Shown one piece after another: positions 1,798 through 54,417 of a stretch of DNA of 64,000 nt. The stretch's first letter is position 1. Each line of letters begins with the position of its first letter. The notes beneath the pieces are model-generated. The model ran no database searches. It was not told the origin of the DNA and saw nothing but the letters and a program-made list of their open reading frames with translations. The position numbers were made by a program, and so were the translations under genes. Source of the stretch: Candidatus Zixiibacteriota bacterium (GTDB lineage: Bacteria; Desulfobacterota; Binatia; UBA9968); the NCBI GenBank assembly GCA_035574315.1, contig DATLYW010000033.1, positions 124,001 through 188,000 on the forward strand. The letters are read 5' to 3'.

Positions 1798-4717
<2,920 letters not shown>

Positions 4718-4718
4718 T

Positions 4719-5861
4719 CTATGCGAGAGCCTCCATCAGGATTTCCTCGGCGGCCGCCACGCCGCGGCCGAACGGCAGCTCGACCCCGAACCTGCGCAGC
4801 GCCATCTCGAGCGCGGCGATCGCGGTAATGACGTCGAACGCGCCCATGTAGCCCACGTGCGCGATGCGGATCACCTTGCCCTTCAGCTTGTCCTGGCCCT
4901 CGGCGAAGGTGACGTTCATCCGGTCGCGGAGGTAGTCGAGCACCCGGTCGGCGTCGACGGCCGGCGGCAGGAAGACGCCGGTGGCGGCCGGGCTGGGATG
5001 CTCCGGGGCGAGCAGCGTGAGCCCAAGGGCGACGGCGGCGGCGCGGGTGGCGCGCGCCATGCGCTCGTGGCGCGCGTAGACGCGATCGAAGCCTTCCCGC
5101 TCCATCATCTTGAGCGAGGCCTTCAGGCCGAAGATCAGGGAAACCGCCGGCGTGAACGCGCCCGAGCCCTTCGCCTGGTTTTTCCGCTCAAGCCTGAGGT
5201 CGAAGTAAAACCGCGGCAGGGTCGCGCTCTCGGTCCGCTTCCATGCACGGTCGCTCAGCGCCACGAACGCGAGGCCCGGAGGGAGCATCAGGGCCTTCTG
5301 CGACCCCGTGACGAGGGCATCGATGCCCCACGCGTCCATCGGCACCGGGAGCACCCCGACGGCGGTCACGCCGTCGACGATCAGCAGCGGGCCGTTGCGC
5401 GTGAGCTTCGCGATCTCGCGCACCGGGTGCAGCACCGTCGTGGAGGTTTCGCTCGCCTGGATGAGGACGCCCTTGAGGTCCGGGTGGGTCTTCAACTGTT
5501 CCTCCACCGCGCCCACCTCGACCGCCTTGCCCCACTCGACCTTCACCTCCACCGGGGCGAGGCCGAAGGCGCGCGAGATCTGCAGCCAGCGCTCGCCGAA
5601 CTTGCCGCCGTTGACGACCAGCACCTTCTCGCCCGGGGAAAACAAGTTGGCGACCGCCGCTTCCATCGCTCCGGTACCGGAGGAGGCGAGCATGAGAACG
5701 TCGTTACGCGTGCCGAAGAGGGTCTTCAACCCCTGCCGCGCTTCTTCGAACACCTCGTTGAACCGGGGCGTGCGATGATGGATCATCGTTTCCGACATCG
5801 CCAGCGCGACCTCGTTGGGGATCGGAGTCGGACCGGGCGAGAGCAGGTAGTGTTTGATCAT
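4719..5861 (-). CDS. Class V PLP-dependent aminotransferase (alanine/serine-glyoxylate type), likely phosphoserine aminotransferase role
   Basis: A 380-residue PLP enzyme of the serine-pyruvate / alanine-glyoxylate aminotransferase family. The SSGTGAMEAA phosphate-binding segment lies near residue 60. Asp163 in IVDGVTAVG contacts the pyridine nitrogen, and Lys189 in TGSQKA is the Schiff-base lysine. It is the first gene after the ZTP riboswitch and is coupled to serA with one base between them. Known family members placed next to serA in bacteria and archaea that lack SerC can supply the phosphoserine aminotransferase step; assigning that role here is inference from context. An alternative is serine-glyoxylate or alanine-glyoxylate aminotransferase. 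No serC or serB is in the window. Confidence 0.85.
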   Translation of the reverse strand: MIKHYLLSPGPTPIPNEVALAMSETMIHHRTPRFNEVFEEARQGLKTLFGTRNDVLMLASSGTGAMEAAVANLFSPGEKVLVVNGGKFGERWLQISRAFGLAPVEVKVEWGKAVEVGAVEEQLKTHPDLKGVLIQASETSTTVLHPVREIAKLTRNGPLLIVDGVTAVGVLPVPMDAWGIDALVTGSQKALMLPPGLAFVALSDRAWKRTESATLPRFYFDLRLERKNQAKGSGAFTPAVSLIFGLKASLKMMEREGFDRVYARHERMARATRAAAVALGLTLLAPEHPSPAATGVFLPPAVDADRVLDYLRDRMNVTFAEGQDKLKGKVIRIAHVGYMGAFDVITAIAALEMALRRFGVELPFGRGVAAAEEILMEALA

Positions 5862-6013: not shown

Positions 6014-6051
6014 AAAAAAAGCCTGAACCTCTTGGGCTAAGAGACCCAGGC
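6014..6051 (-). terminator. Intrinsic terminator of the ZTP riboswitch expression platform
   Basis: On the minus strand GCCUGGGUCUCUU (6051-6039) pairs over all 13 positions (including three G-U wobbles) with AAGAGGUUCAGGC (6033-6021), leaving the loop AGCCC, followed by seven U (6020-6014). The 5' arm contains the conserved GCCUGGG of the ZTP aptamer. Aptamer folding and terminator folding are therefore mutually exclusive, as expected of an ON switch. Confidence 0.9.
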
Positions 6052-6121
6052 GTTCGGCCGTCTTATGCCTTGCACTCCCCCGTGGTTAATTCCACGTTGA
6101 CGCCAGTCGCGCAAAACGTAC
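6039..6121 (-). promoter_or_regulatory. ZTP/ZMP riboswitch (pfl motif) aptamer
   Basis: Reading the minus strand, the RNA contains the diagnostic pfl-motif blocks in order: GCGACUGGCG, a short hairpin CGUGG/CCACG, GGGGAGUGC, then GCCGAACGCCUGGG. These are the conserved parts of the ZTP riboswitch, which senses ZMP/ZTP, intermediates that build up when 10-formyl-tetrahydrofolate is short. It lies between a promoter (6128-6156) and the aminotransferase-serA-purA genes. Its conserved 3' block is also the 5' arm of a terminator, so ligand binding should permit read-through. About 150 bases of leader separate the terminator from the first start codon at 5861. Confidence 0.93.
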
Positions 6122-6220: not shown

Positions 6221-7312
6221 ATGCGCATCATCGTGCACGTCGACATGGACGCCTTCTACGCCGCGGTGGAGGAGCGCTACAATCCGGCGTTGCGGGGTCT
6301 TCCGGTCGTCGTCGGCGCCGACCCCAAGGGAGGACGGGGCAGAGGCGTGGTGACGACCGCCAATTACGCCGCCCGGCGCTACGGCATCCATTCGGCCCTG
6401 CCGATCTCGCGGGCCTGGCGGCTCGCCGAGGCGGCGCGCCGGCGCGGTGAGCCCGCCGCCGTTTTCGTGCGGCCGAACTTCCCCCTTTACGCGGAGGTTT
6501 CGACCCGCATCATGGAGATCCTCGCGCGCGCCGCCGATTCGTTCGAGGAGGCGAGCATCGACGAGGCGTATCTCGATCTTTCGTCGCTGGGGAGCTTCGA
6601 GGCCGCCGCCGAGCGCATGAAAGCGCTCAAAGCCGAGATCCGGGAGAAGGAAGGCCTCGGCTGCTCCGTCGGGATCGGGCCGAACAAGCTCGTCGCGAAG
6701 ATCGCCTCCGGCCACCAGAAGCCGGACGGCCTCACGGTGGTCCGGCCGGAAGAGGTCCAGGCGTTTCTCGACCCGCTTCCCGTGCGGGCGATTCCCGGCA
6801 TCGGCCCGAAAAGCGAAGCGTTCCTCCGCCAGAGGAAAATCAACACCGTCAACGACCTCCGGCAGATCCCCGAAGCGACGCTGTCGGACTGGTTCGGCAA
6901 ATGGGGGCGCAAGTTGTTCGAGAAAGCCCGCGGCATCGACGACTCGGCGGTTTCGAACGAGTGGACGCCCAAGTCCATCGGCGAGCAGGAGACCTTCGAG
7001 CGGGACACGCGGAGCATCGCTTTCGTGGCGGAGCGGCTCGACGGGATGGCGCAACGCGTCGTCTCCCGCTTGCGCGCGCGGGGCTTTTCCGGCTTTCGAA
7101 CCCTCACGCTGACGGTGCGCTTCTCCGACTTCGAGACCAGGAACCGCTCGCGCAGCGTGAAAGAGGGGTTTTCGGCGGTCGACGACGAGGAGGCGACGGG
7201 TCGGGTCAAGCGCGAAGCGCTCAAGCTTCTGTTGCCGTTCTTCGACGCGCGCGAGAATCCGCGCGGGAAAGCGATTCGCCTCGTCGGCCTTCGACTGGAA
7301 AGGCTTTTTTAG
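6221..7312 (+). CDS. dinB: DNA polymerase IV (Y-family translesion polymerase)
   Basis: A 363-residue error-prone polymerase. The start is placed at ATG 6221 because the protein then begins MRIIVHVDMDAFYAAVE, the family's usual N-terminus with the first catalytic aspartate; an upstream GTG at 6185 would add 12 unlikely residues. The second catalytic motif SIDEAYLD, the helix-hairpin-helix PVRAIPGIGPKSEAFL and the little-finger domain follow. It is transcribed divergently from the riboswitch operon with about 65 bases between the promoter there and this gene. No LexA-type box was recognised upstream. Confidence 0.95.
   Translation: MRIIVHVDMDAFYAAVEERYNPALRGLPVVVGADPKGGRGRGVVTTANYAARRYGIHSALPISRAWRLAEAARRRGEPAAVFVRPNFPLYAEVSTRIMEILARAADSFEEASIDEAYLDLSSLGSFEAAAERMKALKAEIREKEGLGCSVGIGPNKLVAKIASGHQKPDGLTVVRPEEVQAFLDPLPVRAIPGIGPKSEAFLRQRKINTVNDLRQIPEATLSDWFGKWGRKLFEKARGIDDSAVSNEWTPKSIGEQETFERDTRSIAFVAERLDGMAQRVVSRLRARGFSGFRTLTLTVRFSDFETRNRSRSVKEGFSAVDDEEATGRVKREALKLLLPFFDARENPRGKAIRLVGLRLERLF
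7287..7310 (+). terminator. Intrinsic terminator overlapping the dinB stop codon
   Basis: GCCTT (7287-7291), an 8-base loop and AAGGC (7300-7304) are followed by six T (7305-7310). The last T is the first base of the dinB stop codon TAG. The stem is only 5 bp, so strength is uncertain. Confidence 0.5.
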
Positions 7313-7475
7313 TCGCTTCGCTCCGGCTGGTCGCTTCGCTCCGGTTCAAACCGTTCAAGCCGTTCAACCGCTTCGCTCCGTTCAAGCAGTGCGCCGCTCC
7401 CCGCGGCCAACTGCTCACGGGGCACTGCTTACTGCTCGCCGGCGCGTAAACCGGAAAGCCGGAACCGAAGAACGT
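7311..7475 (+). repeat. Modular intergenic repeat, copy A (forward)
   Basis: Directly after dinB lies a tract of degenerate 9-nt units (CCGTTCAAN) mixed with CGCTTCGCTCCG blocks (7329-7386). It is followed by a GCGCCGCTCC...CTGCTCACGG...TTACTGC module (7390-7434) and a GGAAAGCCGGAACCGAAG tail. Positions 7329-7434 match the reverse complement of 9297-9397 almost base for base apart from a few substitutions and small gaps. No protein with family features is encoded in it. Confidence 0.85.
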
Positions 7476-7525
7476 TATTGCCGCGGCTGGCATTGCCGGC
7501 GAGTTTGTGAGAAACTTTCGCTGTT

Positions 7526-8221
7526 TTGACGGATCGCCTGGTTCTGTTCGACATCGACGGCACGCTCACGCGCACGCGCAACGGCTTTATGCCGTTCAAC
7601 GAGGCAGTCTCGCGGGTCTTCGGGGTCGCCGCCGACATCCGCTCGGTGGTTCCCGACGGCAACACCGATCCTCTGATCGTGCTCGAGATTTTCCGGAAGG
7701 CGGGGCTCGAGGTGGAGACGACCCCGGAAAAATGGGCAAGCTTTGCCCGGGAGCTGGCCGCAAGCTACGCCGAAGCACTCAGCCGCGGCGCGGTCTCCGT
7801 TCGCGCGCTCCCTGGAGCGCGGGAGCTGCTGGCGGCGCTCGCCGCCGAGCCGGCCGTGGGACTGGGAGTGGTTACGGGAAACCTCGAGGCACCAGCCGCG
7901 ATCAAGCTCGAAGCGGCGGGGTTGCGTTCCTACATCGCCTGCGGCGCGTATGCGAGCGACTCCCGTTACCGCGAAGAGCTGCCGCCGATTGCCAGGCGAC
8001 GCTACGAGAGGCTCGCGGGCCGGAGCATCCCCGCCGAGCGTTGCATCATCGTCGGCGATACGCCGAAGGACCTCGATTGCGCGAGAAAAAACGCGATGCG
8101 CTGCCTCCTGGTCGGAACGGGACGATATCCGGTCGAAGAGCTCCGCGGTTACGGTCCCGATGCCTGCCTTCCGGATCTGTCGGATACGGAGGCCGTGCTG
8201 TCCGTGCTGGCGAAGCTCTGA
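7526..8221 (+). CDS. HAD-superfamily phosphatase
   Basis: A 231-residue cytoplasmic hydrolase of the haloacid dehalogenase superfamily, phosphoglycolate-phosphatase-like. Motif I is DIDGT (residues 9-13, two catalytic aspartates), a helical cap follows, motif II is VVTGN, and the C-terminal motif IV is GDTPKDLDCA. The likely start is TTG at 7526, because the protein then begins MTDRLVLFDIDGT with no room for a better start. Together with the aldo/keto reductase 11 bp downstream it forms a two-gene unit flanked by inverted copies of an intergenic repeat. The substrate is not predictable. Confidence 0.85.
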   Translation: MTDRLVLFDIDGTLTRTRNGFMPFNEAVSRVFGVAADIRSVVPDGNTDPLIVLEIFRKAGLEVETTPEKWASFARELAASYAEALSRGAVSVRALPGARELLAALAAEPAVGLGVVTGNLEAPAAIKLEAAGLRSYIACGAYASDSRYREELPPIARRRYERLAGRSIPAERCIIVGDTPKDLDCARKNAMRCLLVGTGRYPVEELRGYGPDACLPDLSDTEAVLSVLAKL

Positions 8222-8232
8222 CGGGGAGAGGC

Positions 8233-9240
8233 ATGCGGTATCGAAGCGTCGGAAAAACCGATCTGAGAATCTCCGAAATCGGGTTCGGCTGCGGCAACAA
8301 CGCGGTGCTGATGGTCAAAGCCTCCTACGACGAGCAGATGCGGGCGGTCCGCCATGCCCTGGACTGCGGCATCAACTATTTCGACACCGCGTTTGCCTAC
8401 GGTCTGGGCAAGTCCGAGGGGAACCTGGGCCGCATTTTACGGGAGCTCGGGGCCCCGGCGGTCGTTTCGACCAAGATTCGCCTCGGGCCGGAAGCTCTGG
8501 GCGATGTCAAGGCCGCCACGGCGCAGGCCGTGGACGGAGCGCTCGAACGGCTCGGGCGGGACCGTATCGACGTGATCCAGCTCCACACCCGGGTGACATC
8601 GAAGGGAGGCACAGCCGGACGTTTCAGCCTCACGCCGGCCGACGTGCTGGGTCCGAACGGGGTGATCGAAGCCTTCAAGGCGGCCCGGGACAAGGGCAAG
8701 GTCCGTTACTTCGGCTTCAGCGGCCTCGGCGATCCGGGCGCCCTGTGCGAGCTGGTCGACAGCGGCGAGTTCCACGCGTTCCAGGCGTACTACAACCTGC
8801 TCAATCCGAGCGCGGGGCAGCCGGTGCCTGAGGGTTTCAGCGCTCTCGATTACCGCGGGATCATCGATCGCGCGGCGGCGAAGGGAATGGGGGCTTTCGT
8901 CATCCGGGTGCTCGCGGCGGGGGCGCTGACATCGGACCCGAGCGCGGGCGGCGGAAGCAGCCCGGAGCCGCTCTCCCCGGGCTCGGACTACCGGCTCGAT
9001 TGCGAGCGCGCCGAGAAGGTGCGCGAGGCGCTCGGGGTCGACCCCGGGAGCCTCGCGGGGGCGGCGATTCGCTTTGCTTTGATGAAGCCGGAGGTGTCGA
9101 GCGTGCTCGTCGGGTTTTCCAATACCGGCCACATCGACCAGGCGGTCGCGTGCTCCGGCGCCGCCGGCCTTTCCGCGGAGCAGCTCGCGCGCCTGCGGGA
9201 GCTTTGGAGAACCGATTTCGGAAGGCTTGCCGATGGATGA
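8233..9240 (+). CDS. Aldo/keto reductase
   Basis: A 335-residue NADPH-dependent oxidoreductase of the AKR superfamily. The ATG at 8233 follows GGGGAGAGG. The catalytic tetrad is visible: Asp and Tyr in FDTAFAYG, Lys in VVSTK and His in IQLHT. The LxxLGRDRIDVIQLH and SSVLVGF segments are typical of the AKR11/12-like bacterial branch. It directly follows the HAD phosphatase and is probably co-transcribed with it. The physiological substrate is unknown. The gene stops at the edge of the second (inverted) intergenic repeat. Confidence 0.88.
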   Translation: MRYRSVGKTDLRISEIGFGCGNNAVLMVKASYDEQMRAVRHALDCGINYFDTAFAYGLGKSEGNLGRILRELGAPAVVSTKIRLGPEALGDVKAATAQAVDGALERLGRDRIDVIQLHTRVTSKGGTAGRFSLTPADVLGPNGVIEAFKAARDKGKVRYFGFSGLGDPGALCELVDSGEFHAFQAYYNLLNPSAGQPVPEGFSALDYRGIIDRAAAKGMGAFVIRVLAAGALTSDPSAGGGSSPEPLSPGSDYRLDCERAEKVREALGVDPGSLAGAAIRFALMKPEVSSVLVGFSNTGHIDQAVACSGAAGLSAEQLARLRELWRTDFGRLADG

Positions 9241-9400
9241 TTTCCGGGTTCCGGTTCTTGTCTTTCCGGTCTTCGGTTTCCGGCCTGCCCCCCGTTGCAG
9301 TAAGCCGTGAGCAGTTTGCGGCTGCGGAGCGGCGCACGGCTTGAACGGAGCGAAGCGGTTGAACGGTGTGAACGGTTTGAACCGGAGCGGAGCGACTTTT
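9241..9400 (-). repeat. Modular intergenic repeat, copy B (inverted relative to copy A)
   Basis: The minus strand from 9397 to 9297 repeats copy A: GTCGCT, GGTTCAAACCGTTCA, CCGTTCAACCGCTTCGCTCC, GTGCGCCGCTCC, AACTGCTCACGG, TTACTGC. Then come CCGGAAACCGAAGACCGG and AACCGGAACCCGGAAA modules (9284-9241). With copy A it forms an inverted repeat around the 1.7-kb HAD/aldo-keto reductase pair. Confidence 0.85.
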
Positions 9401-9437: not shown

Positions 9438-9662
9438 ATGTCGATTCGCATCCGGGTGATCGTCAAACCGGCGGCGAAGAAGGAGGGCGTGATCGAGCTT
9501 GCGCCCGGCGAGTACCGGGTGTCGGTCAACGCTCCGCCCGCCGAGGGAAGAGCCAACCAGGCGGTGCTGGAGCTTCTGGCAGATTATTTTTCGGTTCGCA
9601 AATCGGCGGTGCGCATCGTCGCCGGCCGCTCGGCGCGAAAGAAGATCGTCGAGATAGGCTAG
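9438..9662 (+). CDS. DUF167 (YggU) family protein
   Basis: A 74-residue protein with the DUF167 core: an N-terminal strand IRIRVIVKPAAKK, then VSVNAPPAEGRANQAVLELL and a C-terminal strand region GRSARKKIVEI. The family is widely conserved and has a known fold but no settled function. It lies 38 bp after repeat copy B and 36 bp before the MFS gene; it could share their transcript. Length is normal for the family. Confidence 0.9.
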   Translation: MSIRIRVIVKPAAKKEGVIELAPGEYRVSVNAPPAEGRANQAVLELLADYFSVRKSAVRIVAGRSARKKIVEIG

Positions 9663-50731: not shown

Positions 50732-52051
50732 ATGCCCCAGAAGGACCAGGCGGTTGCGATCGTCAAGCGGTTGCGCGAGCACGGATACCAGAGCTATCTC
50801 GCGGGCGGCTGCGTGCGCGATTTCCTGCTGGGCAGGGAGCCGCAGGATTACGACGTGACGACGGACGCCAGACCCGAAGAGGTCCGGCGGCTGTTCGACC
50901 GGACCGTTCCCGTCGGGGCGCAGTTCGGTGTTGTGCTGGTGATCGTCGATGGCGAGGGGTACGAAGTCGCCACCTTCCGCTTCGACGGTCCGTATCTCGA
51001 CGGCCGCAGACCGAGCGAGGTGCGCTATGGCACGCTCGAAGAGGACATCCGGCGCCGAGACTTCACCATCAACGGGATGGTTTACGACCCGCTGGCCGAC
51101 AAGATCATCGATCTGGTGGGAGGCGTCGAGGACCTCAGGAGACGCCGGGTGCGCGCGATCGGGGATCCCGCCGCCCGGTTCGAGGAAGATCGCCTGCGCA
51201 TGATCCGGGCAGTCCGCTTCGCCGCAGCGCTCGGCTTCGAGATCGAGCCCGACACGCTCGCCGCCATCCGGAAGCTGGCCGGCGGGATCACGACGATTTC
51301 CTGGGAGCGGATCGGCGACGAGGTCACGCGCATCCTCACGGAAGGGGGAGCGCGGCGCGGGTTCGAGTTGCTCGACGAGACGGGGCTGCTCCGGCCGATC
51401 CTACCGGAGATCGAGGCGTTGAAAGGCGTGGAGCAGAGCCCCGATTATCACCCGGAAGGGGACGTCTTCACGCACACGCTGCTGATGCTCGGCCATCTCG
51501 AGAACCCGTCCGAGACGCTGGCCTACGGCTGCCTGCTGCACGATATCGGCAAGCCGGCCTGCCAGCGCCGCGAAGGGGAACGGATCACGTTCTACGGCCA
51601 CGCGGAGCTCGGCGCCGAGATGGCGGAAGCCGTCTTGAAGCGGCTGAAGCGAGGGCGGGCCGCATGGGAGCGGGTCGCTTTTCTGGTGCGCAACCATCTG
51701 CGCCACACGCAGGCGCCCAACATGCGCCTGAGCACGCTCAAGCGTTTCCTGCGCCAGGAGGGCATCGAAGAGCTGCTGGAGCTCACCCGGATCGACGCGC
51801 TGGCGGGGAACGGCGACCTGCGATACTACCGGTTCTGCAAGGAAAAGCTCGCGGAGTTCAAAGAGGAGGAGATCCGTCCGGCGCCGCTTCTGCGGGGGGC
51901 GGACTTGATCGAGATGGGATTCGAACCGGGACCGCTTTTCAGCGAGATCCTCGGGCAGGTCGAAGAGAGGCAGCTCTCGGGCGAGCTTGCCACCCGCGAA
52001 GCGGCGGTCGACTGGGTGCGGCGACACTACAAGCGTGAGGTCCAAGGATGA
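50732..52051 (+). CDS. tRNA nucleotidyltransferase / poly(A) polymerase family protein with HD domain
   Basis: A 439-residue class II nucleotidyltransferase. The N-terminal head has AGGCVRDFLLGREPQDYDVTT with the two catalytic aspartates (D-x-D), then RRRDFTINGMVYDP and RFEEDRLRMIRAVRFAA. A C-terminal HD domain (CLLHDIGKP, HAELGAEMA) resembles bacterial CCA-adding enzymes with phosphohydrolase activity. Either CCA addition or polyadenylation could be its task; sequence does not separate them securely. It overlaps the molybdenum hydroxylase gene by four bases. Confidence 0.88.
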   Translation: MPQKDQAVAIVKRLREHGYQSYLAGGCVRDFLLGREPQDYDVTTDARPEEVRRLFDRTVPVGAQFGVVLVIVDGEGYEVATFRFDGPYLDGRRPSEVRYGTLEEDIRRRDFTINGMVYDPLADKIIDLVGGVEDLRRRRVRAIGDPAARFEEDRLRMIRAVRFAAALGFEIEPDTLAAIRKLAGGITTISWERIGDEVTRILTEGGARRGFELLDETGLLRPILPEIEALKGVEQSPDYHPEGDVFTHTLLMLGHLENPSETLAYGCLLHDIGKPACQRREGERITFYGHAELGAEMAEAVLKRLKRGRAAWERVAFLVRNHLRHTQAPNMRLSTLKRFLRQEGIEELLELTRIDALAGNGDLRYYRFCKEKLAEFKEEEIRPAPLLRGADLIEMGFEPGPLFSEILGQVEERQLSGELATREAAVDWVRRHYKREVQG

Positions 52052-54417
52052 AGAAAGCGGGGGCATACAACATTGTCGGCAGAGCGCAGCCGCGCATCGA
52101 CGGCGAGGAGAAGACGACAGGCCGGGCGCTCTACACGGTGGACGTGGCGCTGCCGGGGATGGCCCACGCCAGGGTCCTGCGGAGCCCCTATGCGCACGCC
52201 CGGCTGCTTCGTGTCGACGCCAGCAAGGCGGAGCGACTGCCGGGCGTCTACGCCGTGATCACCCGCGAGGACCAGCGGCACCTCGGGATGTTCGGAGCCG
52301 CTTACAAGGACCAGACGATCGTGGCCGTCGACAAGGTGCGGTACGCGGGCGATCCGGTCGCCGCCGTGGCCGCCGCGGACGAGGAGATCGCCGAAGAGGC
52401 GCTCGATCTGATCGAGGTGGACTACGAGGAGCTTCCCGCGGTCACCTCGATCGAAGAGGCGCTGGCGCCGGGCGCTCCCCTGGTGCACGATACGGCTTCC
52501 TCCGGCGGCGAGCTGATGGGCCAGCGCTACGAGGCGCCGAAGGAGTTCGCGGGGACCAACCTCTGCTACCGCTTCAGCTACTCCAAAGGAGACGTGGAGA
52601 AAGGATTCTCCCAGTCGGATTACGTTTTCGACCACACCTTCACCTTCCCGCGCGTGCAGCATTTCTCCATGGAGCCGCACGCGACGGTGGCGCACGTCGA
52701 AGGGGATCGCATCACGCTCTGGACCGGGACGCAGGAGCCCTTTACCCTCCGCGAGCACCTCGCCGAGATCTTCCATTTGCCGCTGAACCGCATCCGGATC
52801 ATCGTTCCGTACGTCGGCGGCGGATACGGCGGCAAGCTTGCGGTCAAGACCGAGCCTCTGGCCGCCGCGCTTTCCTGGAAGGCGCGCCGCCCGGTCCGGC
52901 TCGTGCACACGATCGAAGAGAGCTTCAAGACGGTGACCCGCCATCCTTCCCGCGTGCGGATCAAGACCGGCGTGACCCGGGACGGCAGGCTCGTCGCGCG
53001 CCAGTGCGTTATCCACATGAACACCGGCGCCTACGCGGACGCCGGCCCCCGGGTCACGCAAAAGGCGGGCTACCGCTGCTTCGGACCGTACCGGCTGCCT
53101 CACATGAAGACCGACGCCTACACCGTGTACAGCAACACGGTTCCGGCCGGAGCCTACCGCGGGTTCGGAACCTTGCAGGTCACGTGGGCCTACGAGTCGC
53201 AGATGGACATCATCGCCGAAGCGCTCGGCCTGGACCCGCTCGAGTTTCGCCTGAAGAACCTGCTCAGGAAGGGGGAGCTGTATACGCCGGGGGACACGCC
53301 CGTGGACTGCGATCTCAGGGCGGGCCTGCTGCGGGCCGCCGAGGAGATCGGCTGGCGGGAAAGGGCGAAGCCGCGTCGCGGCAAGGGGCTGGCGGTATGC
53401 ATGAAAGACGGGGGCGGTACGTACAAGATCTCGTCGGCCGCGGTCAAGCTGAACGCCGACGGAAGCGTGGTGCTGCTCACCGGCACGGTGGAGATCGGCC
53501 AGGGAGCGAGAACCGCGCTCAGCCAGATCGTGGCCGAAGAGCTGGGGCTGCCGTTCGACCGGATCACCGTGGCGCAGCTCGATACCGACGTCACGCCTTA
53601 CGACGTCAACACCAACGCCAGCAGCTCCACGGTGGTCATGGGGCTCGCCGTTCAACGGGCGGCTCAGGACCTCAAGCGGCAGCTCATCCGTCACGGGGCG
53701 AAGCTCCTCGGGGTCCGGCCGGATCGGCTGTCGCTGCGCGACGGCGCGGTGCACGCGGGCAAGGGAAAGTCCGTTTCCTTCGCGCGGATCATGCAGCACG
53801 TTTTTCTCTCCAAAGGCGGCGAGCTGATCGGGCGGGGCGCCTATCAGGACATCAAGAGCACCAAGGCGGCGCTGGGCTCGCCGACGACCTTCTGGGAGAT
53901 CAGCTGGGGAGCCGCCGAAGTCGAGGTCGATCCGGAAACCGGGGTCATCCGGCTGGTGAAATACATTTCGCTGTCCGACGTCGGGCAGGCGATCCATCCG
54001 GTGTTGTGCGAGGGGCAGGACGAAGGGGCGGTGGTGAACGCTATCGGCCACAGCCTGTTCGAGGAAATGGTCTATCGGGACGGCCAGCTCTTGAATCCCA
54101 ACCTGATCGACTACCGGATCCCGACCTTCGCCCATCTGCCCGACCGACTGGAGACGGTTCTGATCGAAAGCCACAACGGGCCCGGTCCGTTTGGCGCCAA
54201 AGGGATGGGGGAAGGTGGGCTATTGCCGGTTGCGGCGGCGATCGCAAACGCCGTTTACCGGGCCGCAGGAGTCAGGCTCTTCGATCTGCCCCTCTCGCCC
54301 GAAAAGGTGTGGCGCGCCCTGCGGCAACAGGGGGGTGCCGTCGGCGTCCGGCCGGATGAAGCGGCTATCCGGCGCCGAAAAGCTGAAAGACCAGGCCCTC
54401 GGGAAAAGGAACGTTGA
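52048..54417 (+). CDS. Xanthine-dehydrogenase-family molybdopterin-binding large subunit
   Basis: A 789-residue large subunit of the molybdenum hydroxylase family (CO dehydrogenase CoxL, XdhA, nicotinate/quinoline oxidases). Domains: the aldehyde-oxidase ab-hammerhead at about 15-120, then MoCo domains. The active-site segment GAYRGFGTLQ and the catalytic Glu in GPFGAKGMGEGGLLPV are present. The CoxL-specific AYXCSFR loop is not seen, so CO oxidation is unlikely. Normally FAD and [2Fe-2S] subunits are encoded alongside; neither is found here. Start overlaps the cca-type gene by four bases and the 3' end overlaps the convergent tctAB by 53 bp. Confidence 0.88.
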   Translation: MKKAGAYNIVGRAQPRIDGEEKTTGRALYTVDVALPGMAHARVLRSPYAHARLLRVDASKAERLPGVYAVITREDQRHLGMFGAAYKDQTIVAVDKVRYAGDPVAAVAAADEEIAEEALDLIEVDYEELPAVTSIEEALAPGAPLVHDTASSGGELMGQRYEAPKEFAGTNLCYRFSYSKGDVEKGFSQSDYVFDHTFTFPRVQHFSMEPHATVAHVEGDRITLWTGTQEPFTLREHLAEIFHLPLNRIRIIVPYVGGGYGGKLAVKTEPLAAALSWKARRPVRLVHTIEESFKTVTRHPSRVRIKTGVTRDGRLVARQCVIHMNTGAYADAGPRVTQKAGYRCFGPYRLPHMKTDAYTVYSNTVPAGAYRGFGTLQVTWAYESQMDIIAEALGLDPLEFRLKNLLRKGELYTPGDTPVDCDLRAGLLRAAEEIGWRERAKPRRGKGLAVCMKDGGGTYKISSAAVKLNADGSVVLLTGTVEIGQGARTALSQIVAEELGLPFDRITVAQLDTDVTPYDVNTNASSSTVVMGLAVQRAAQDLKRQLIRHGAKLLGVRPDRLSLRDGAVHAGKGKSVSFARIMQHVFLSKGGELIGRGAYQDIKSTKAALGSPTTFWEISWGAAEVEVDPETGVIRLVKYISLSDVGQAIHPVLCEGQDEGAVVNAIGHSLFEEMVYRDGQLLNPNLIDYRIPTFAHLPDRLETVLIESHNGPGPFGAKGMGEGGLLPVAAAIANAVYRAAGVRLFDLPLSPEKVWRALRQQGGAVGVRPDEAAIRRRKAERPGPREKER

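Follow-up and report, generated by a model that had tools for sequence, protein, structure and literature searches.

The window, by which we mean the whole 64,000-nt stretch of DNA that was analysed, contains a HAD-family hydrolase gene and an aldo-keto reductase (AKR) gene that are bracketed by two inverted copies of a short repeat. The features of this locus are as follows.

4719-5861, minus strand: class V aminotransferase
6221-7312, plus strand: DinB/IMS-family DNA polymerase, left flank
7311-7473, plus strand: repeat copy 1, with an 18-nt 5' duplication, a core of 9-nt period, then CTGCTCA-type and CCGGAAA-type modules
7526-8221, plus strand: HAD-family hydrolase (PF00702, PF13419), enclosed by the pair and outside the element
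8233-9240, plus strand: AKR, enclosed by the pair and outside the element
9254-9396, minus strand: repeat copy 2, with the same module order as copy 1 and without the 18-nt 5' duplication
9438-9662, plus strand: DUF167/YggU, right flank

A ZMP/ZTP riboswitch (RF01750, 60 bits) was also located at 6037-6120 on the minus strand. It lies upstream of a minus-strand run with the aminotransferase gene, serA (3134-4717, phosphoglycerate dehydrogenase) and purA (1798-3105).

The strongest inverted pair of the entire window was the ungapped match of 7330-7400 with 9326-9396 (71 nt, 94% complementary). With gaps allowed, the homology extended over ~145 nt (7330-7473 against the reverse complement of 9254-9396), and 121 of the 139 aligned bases were identical (87%). 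When the own genome was searched, copy 1 matched copy 2 with E = 1.8e-30, and the inverted pair is thus far beyond chance. An earlier sequence-only reading had proposed matching inverted repeats of about 100 bp (7329-7434 and 9297-9397) that enclose exactly two genes; alignment bore out the repeats, at a somewhat greater length, and the HAD and AKR genes are indeed the two that lie between the copies. The gaps between DinB and HAD (213 nt) and between AKR and YggU (197 nt) are mostly filled by the two copies. The first bases of copy 1 overlap the TAG stop codon (7310-7312) of the DinB gene, and the copy opens with the 18-nt duplication (AGTCGCTTCGCTCCGGCT / GGTCGCTTCGCTCCGGTT; 7311-7346), which occurs in three genomic copies in all, copy 1 and two others. 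Its core has a 9-nt period (CCGTTCAAN..) with a CGCTTCGCTCC module.

We then found the two copies to be members of a much larger family. In the own genome of the window (4.26 Mb, 53 contigs), copy 1 used as a query gave 46 matches at E <= 0.001. A core pattern of 27 nt, with up to 3 mismatches allowed, occurred at 49 places (26 forward and 23 reverse), and the same pattern read backwards as a control gave no match in this genome. After merging, ~59 elements were counted, and the family size is therefore given as about 50-60 copies. The two copies in the window are each other's best match, and are otherwise nothing special compared with the other genomic copies. Aligned copies gave the consensus AGTCGCTTCGCTCC-GTTCAAACC-GTTCAAGCC-GTTCAAYCG-CTTCGCTCC-GTTCAAGCCG, a string of 9-nt period with a repeated CGCTTCGCTCC module. 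This ordered string of ~60 nt, with the CGCTTCGCTCC module at fixed places, is common to many loci at ~90% identity. In many copies CCGGAAA, CGGTCTT and TCGAACC-type modules were present 3' of the core, and nearly none 5' of it. The whole element measures ~60-145 nt, with a gene-proximal core and 7-nt-type modules on its 3' side; from the position of the core and these 3'-side modules it follows that the element is a polar composite that is longer than its core.

The placement of the copies relative to genes was far from random. In the own genome 43 of the 49 cores were intergenic, compared with 10-12% expected from the intergenic share of the window (p about 1e-34). Genes were called for this purpose with a simple codon-usage caller trained on the window; since a large stretch at 52048-54417 that is probably a gene escaped it, the true intergenic share is lower still. 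The orientation relative to genes was even: among the intergenic copies, the gene on the 5' side of the element was forward in 22 and reverse in 21. In 36 of 41 intergenic copies the core was nearer to the 5'-side gene than to the 3'-side gene, with median core-to-gene distances of 66 nt and 215 nt, respectively (p = 4e-6). Several copies had hinted at an insertion rule of "right after the stop codon"; we rejected this rule, as gene calls put copies by starts and stops alike. Altogether, the suggestion of the sequence-only reading that the pair might come from a family of repeats which merely tend to end up at gene borders was supported, given the copy number, the intergenic preference and the occurrence in both orientations.

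Copies of the element also lie close together more often than under uniform scatter, with 11 close pairs (<=4 kb) observed in the own genome and 3.1 expected. When within-contig density was taken into account, the expectation rose to 7.1 (p = 0.06), so that much of the excess of close pairs can be ascribed to uneven density between contigs. With such clustering, two inverted copies at a distance of 2 kb come as no surprise. The density itself differed ~40-fold between contigs, from 8.2 copies per 100 kb on C28 to 0.2 on C48, the contrast being between contigs C28, C29 and C47 on the one hand and C12 and C48 on the other. Contigs totalling 1.6 Mb were without a detected copy. Candidate causes of this contrast are a chromosomal region or a mixed bin.

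The other suggestion of the sequence-only reading was a mobile or invertible cassette, in which the inverted copies would act as ends or recombination sites and HAD-AKR would be moved or flipped together. The inverted arrangement around whole genes is what such a cassette would look like, and 6 of the 11 close pairs likewise point inward, against ~2.75 expected, although this comparison is post hoc and weak. In related genomes, the place and orientation of AKR were kept. The AKR gene was present in 30 of the 39 genomes searched, the own genome included. In all 11 relatives in which both genes were in view, its orientation with respect to the aminotransferase gene was the same, the aminotransferase being upstream of AKR on the opposite strand as in the window, and HAD was directly upstream of AKR in 12 loci of the same family. 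DinB was not seen between the aminotransferase and AKR in the relatives' loci with both in view. Arrays of GTTCAA/TTGAAC units were not detected at the orthologous AKR borders, where only scattered single hits were found. As the gene order is kept in relatives and the borders carry no arrays, these genes stay put and are oriented alike while the repeats are absent. The close pairs, in turn, are largely due to uneven contig density, and no recombinase gene was found within or directly beside the segment, which is flanked by the DinB polymerase, YggU and MFS. A cassette was thus unsupported, and we regard it as very improbable.

That repeats vary in presence while the flanking genes stay was also shown between two divergent genes at another locus, where the element is present in the sister species G018 and G022 and the gap is empty in G004, G012, G006 and G014. 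This distribution would fit insertion or deletion alike, and the gaps are too diverged for exact junctions or a target-site duplication to be read. Genes in a fixed orientation with repeats that vary independently of them argue against the cassette and in favour of a family that settles at gene borders. In three loci (L042, L048 and L152), TTGCCTG-type 7-nt units were observed beside the element; these units are kept in the empty site of G004, and may therefore be older than the insertion at that locus. At an element locus in genus g9, the neighbouring genes are multi-copy.

An element near gene ends could also be a structured RNA, such as a terminator, an attenuator or an mRNA stabiliser, that is under selection at these positions. 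In line with this idea, copies are near gene ends and some have a GC-rich hairpin just 3' of the core. It is at odds with the even orientation to genes and with the absence of the element from the orthologous AKR borders. Furthermore, the element had no Rfam match, and when 114-nt segments were folded they were barely more stable than shuffled sequences (mean z -0.38, with 5 of 49 below -2); a conserved RNA structure of the element was rejected on this comparison. A terminator or regulatory-RNA role is not supported by these data, and we consider selection for a structured RNA improbable.

We next considered how widely the family is distributed. Of the 25 genomes from the same family, including that of the window, 24 had matches, as did 1 of 33 genomes from other families of the same order and class. 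Across 84,980 species genomes, a 34-nt core pattern identified 13 stretches, in records titled Deltaproteobacteria, Candidatus Binatia or, in one case, Syntrophobacter. An earlier exact core pattern that was stricter than the 34-nt one gave 0 matches in the species genomes, and a shorter core pattern gave no match in viral contigs. As far as searched, the repeat is confined to one bacterial family. Within this family, the form of the element differs. An inverted TTGAAC-type arm was present within 160 nt in 15 of 27 copies in relatives, versus 1 of 51 in the own genome, and neither copy in the window has such a second arm. Four two-armed copies were folded and formed long hairpins, e.g. L035 at -74 kcal/mol. 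In L032, L034, L035 and L037 a second, G-rich hairpin (CCTCCCCCGCG...CGGGGGAGG) occupies the centre of the two-armed element, an arrangement that looks like one repeat nested in another. It is conceivable, though we hold it to be doubtful, that the repeat is a lineage-wide Candidatus Binatia family in which, in one genus, a two-armed REPIN-like hairpin gave rise to a one-armed form that is tailed by 7-nt modules and is still spreading. If true, this would imply a copying mechanism that dispenses with the second arm.

The periodic modules (9 nt and 7 nt) and the 18-nt tandem duplication common to three copies raise the possibility that the heptamer and nonamer arrays have grown in place by replication slippage and were dispersed by gene conversion instead of transposition. 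Such arrays would be akin to cyanobacterial STRRs, which are intergenic strings of short units, or to long simple sequence repeats. However, growth in place alone is insufficient to account for the fixed order of ~60 nt with its CGCTTCGCTCC module at ~90% identity at many loci, and the inverted two-armed copies of relatives also speak against it. We therefore think this origin quite unlikely.

The reading that we prefer, with a probability of roughly three in four, is that of a dispersed intergenic repeat copied in trans, with the pair in the window representing two independent insertions and no cassette. The element is best explained as a new REPIN/MITE-like, non-autonomous intergenic repeat family. 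Its mobilisation in trans is likely, and we infer that a gene at another place supplies the copying enzyme. This might be a Y1 (RAYT-type) transposase, which would act on the hairpin of a two-armed ancestor. Copies that land in coding sequence would be purged, leaving survivors at gene borders, and both insertions around HAD and AKR would have occurred in a genome in which the repeat is locally clustered. The element would then neither invert nor move these genes, and their flanking looks like a by-product of the repeat's landing sites. The Y1 family was present in 27 of 29 genomes, and the own genome had only three partial Y1 matches. A related repeat was beside 1 of 10 Y1-transposase loci inspected in relatives. 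The correlation between repeat and Y1 copy numbers was weak (rho about 0.5, p about 0.04, n = 17), with counts that are lower bounds and raw for genome size.

Several known systems resemble the element in part. According to the REPIN model (Bertels and Rainey 2011, PMC3116915), short palindromic units arranged as inverted doublets fold into a hairpin, and these doublets are linked to RAYT transposases. Like REPINs and REP sequences, the element is short, extragenic, dispersed, lineage-specific, non-coding and present in many copies, and in sister genera inverted arm pairs fold into one long hairpin as in REPINs. Unlike in REPINs, nearly all copies in the own genome are one-armed, the arms are 9-nt periodic GTTCAA strings, and the association with Y1 transposase genes is limited to the single locus in ten mentioned above. 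With MITEs (reviewed in PMC10969869) it shares a small size, an apparently non-autonomous nature, an intergenic position and, in the two-armed form of relatives, inverted terminal arms; the own-genome copies differ from MITEs by having no terminal inverted repeats, which many copies in relatives do have. The TAACTGA repeats of Beggiatoaceae and cyanobacteria are intergenic heptamers in tandem copies of one unit, mostly aimed at start codons (PMC4679880). Similar to these and to STRRs, the element contains intergenic strings of short units (7 nt in its 3' modules), whereas its core combines different units in a set order and is oriented at random, unlike the TAACTGA repeats. No description of repeats in Candidatus Binatia was found in the open-licence literature. 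The element represents a new family within a known kind of sequence, that of short dispersed intergenic repeats, and its one-armed form in this genus is unusual. More generally, a conspicuous pair of inverted repeats on either side of two genes can arise as a side effect of a dispersed repeat that is clustered, and a lineage-specific family in an uncultured group, with one-armed and two-armed forms in sister genera, could teach how such repeats spread.

Finally, in one related genome (G019) a two-armed relative of the element is present in at least 20 copies that closely resemble one another (L160-L179). The homogeneity of this subfamily suggests that it is young and has spread recently, and it is suited to defining the ends of the element and its target sites. 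The G019 copies share further sequence outside the arms.
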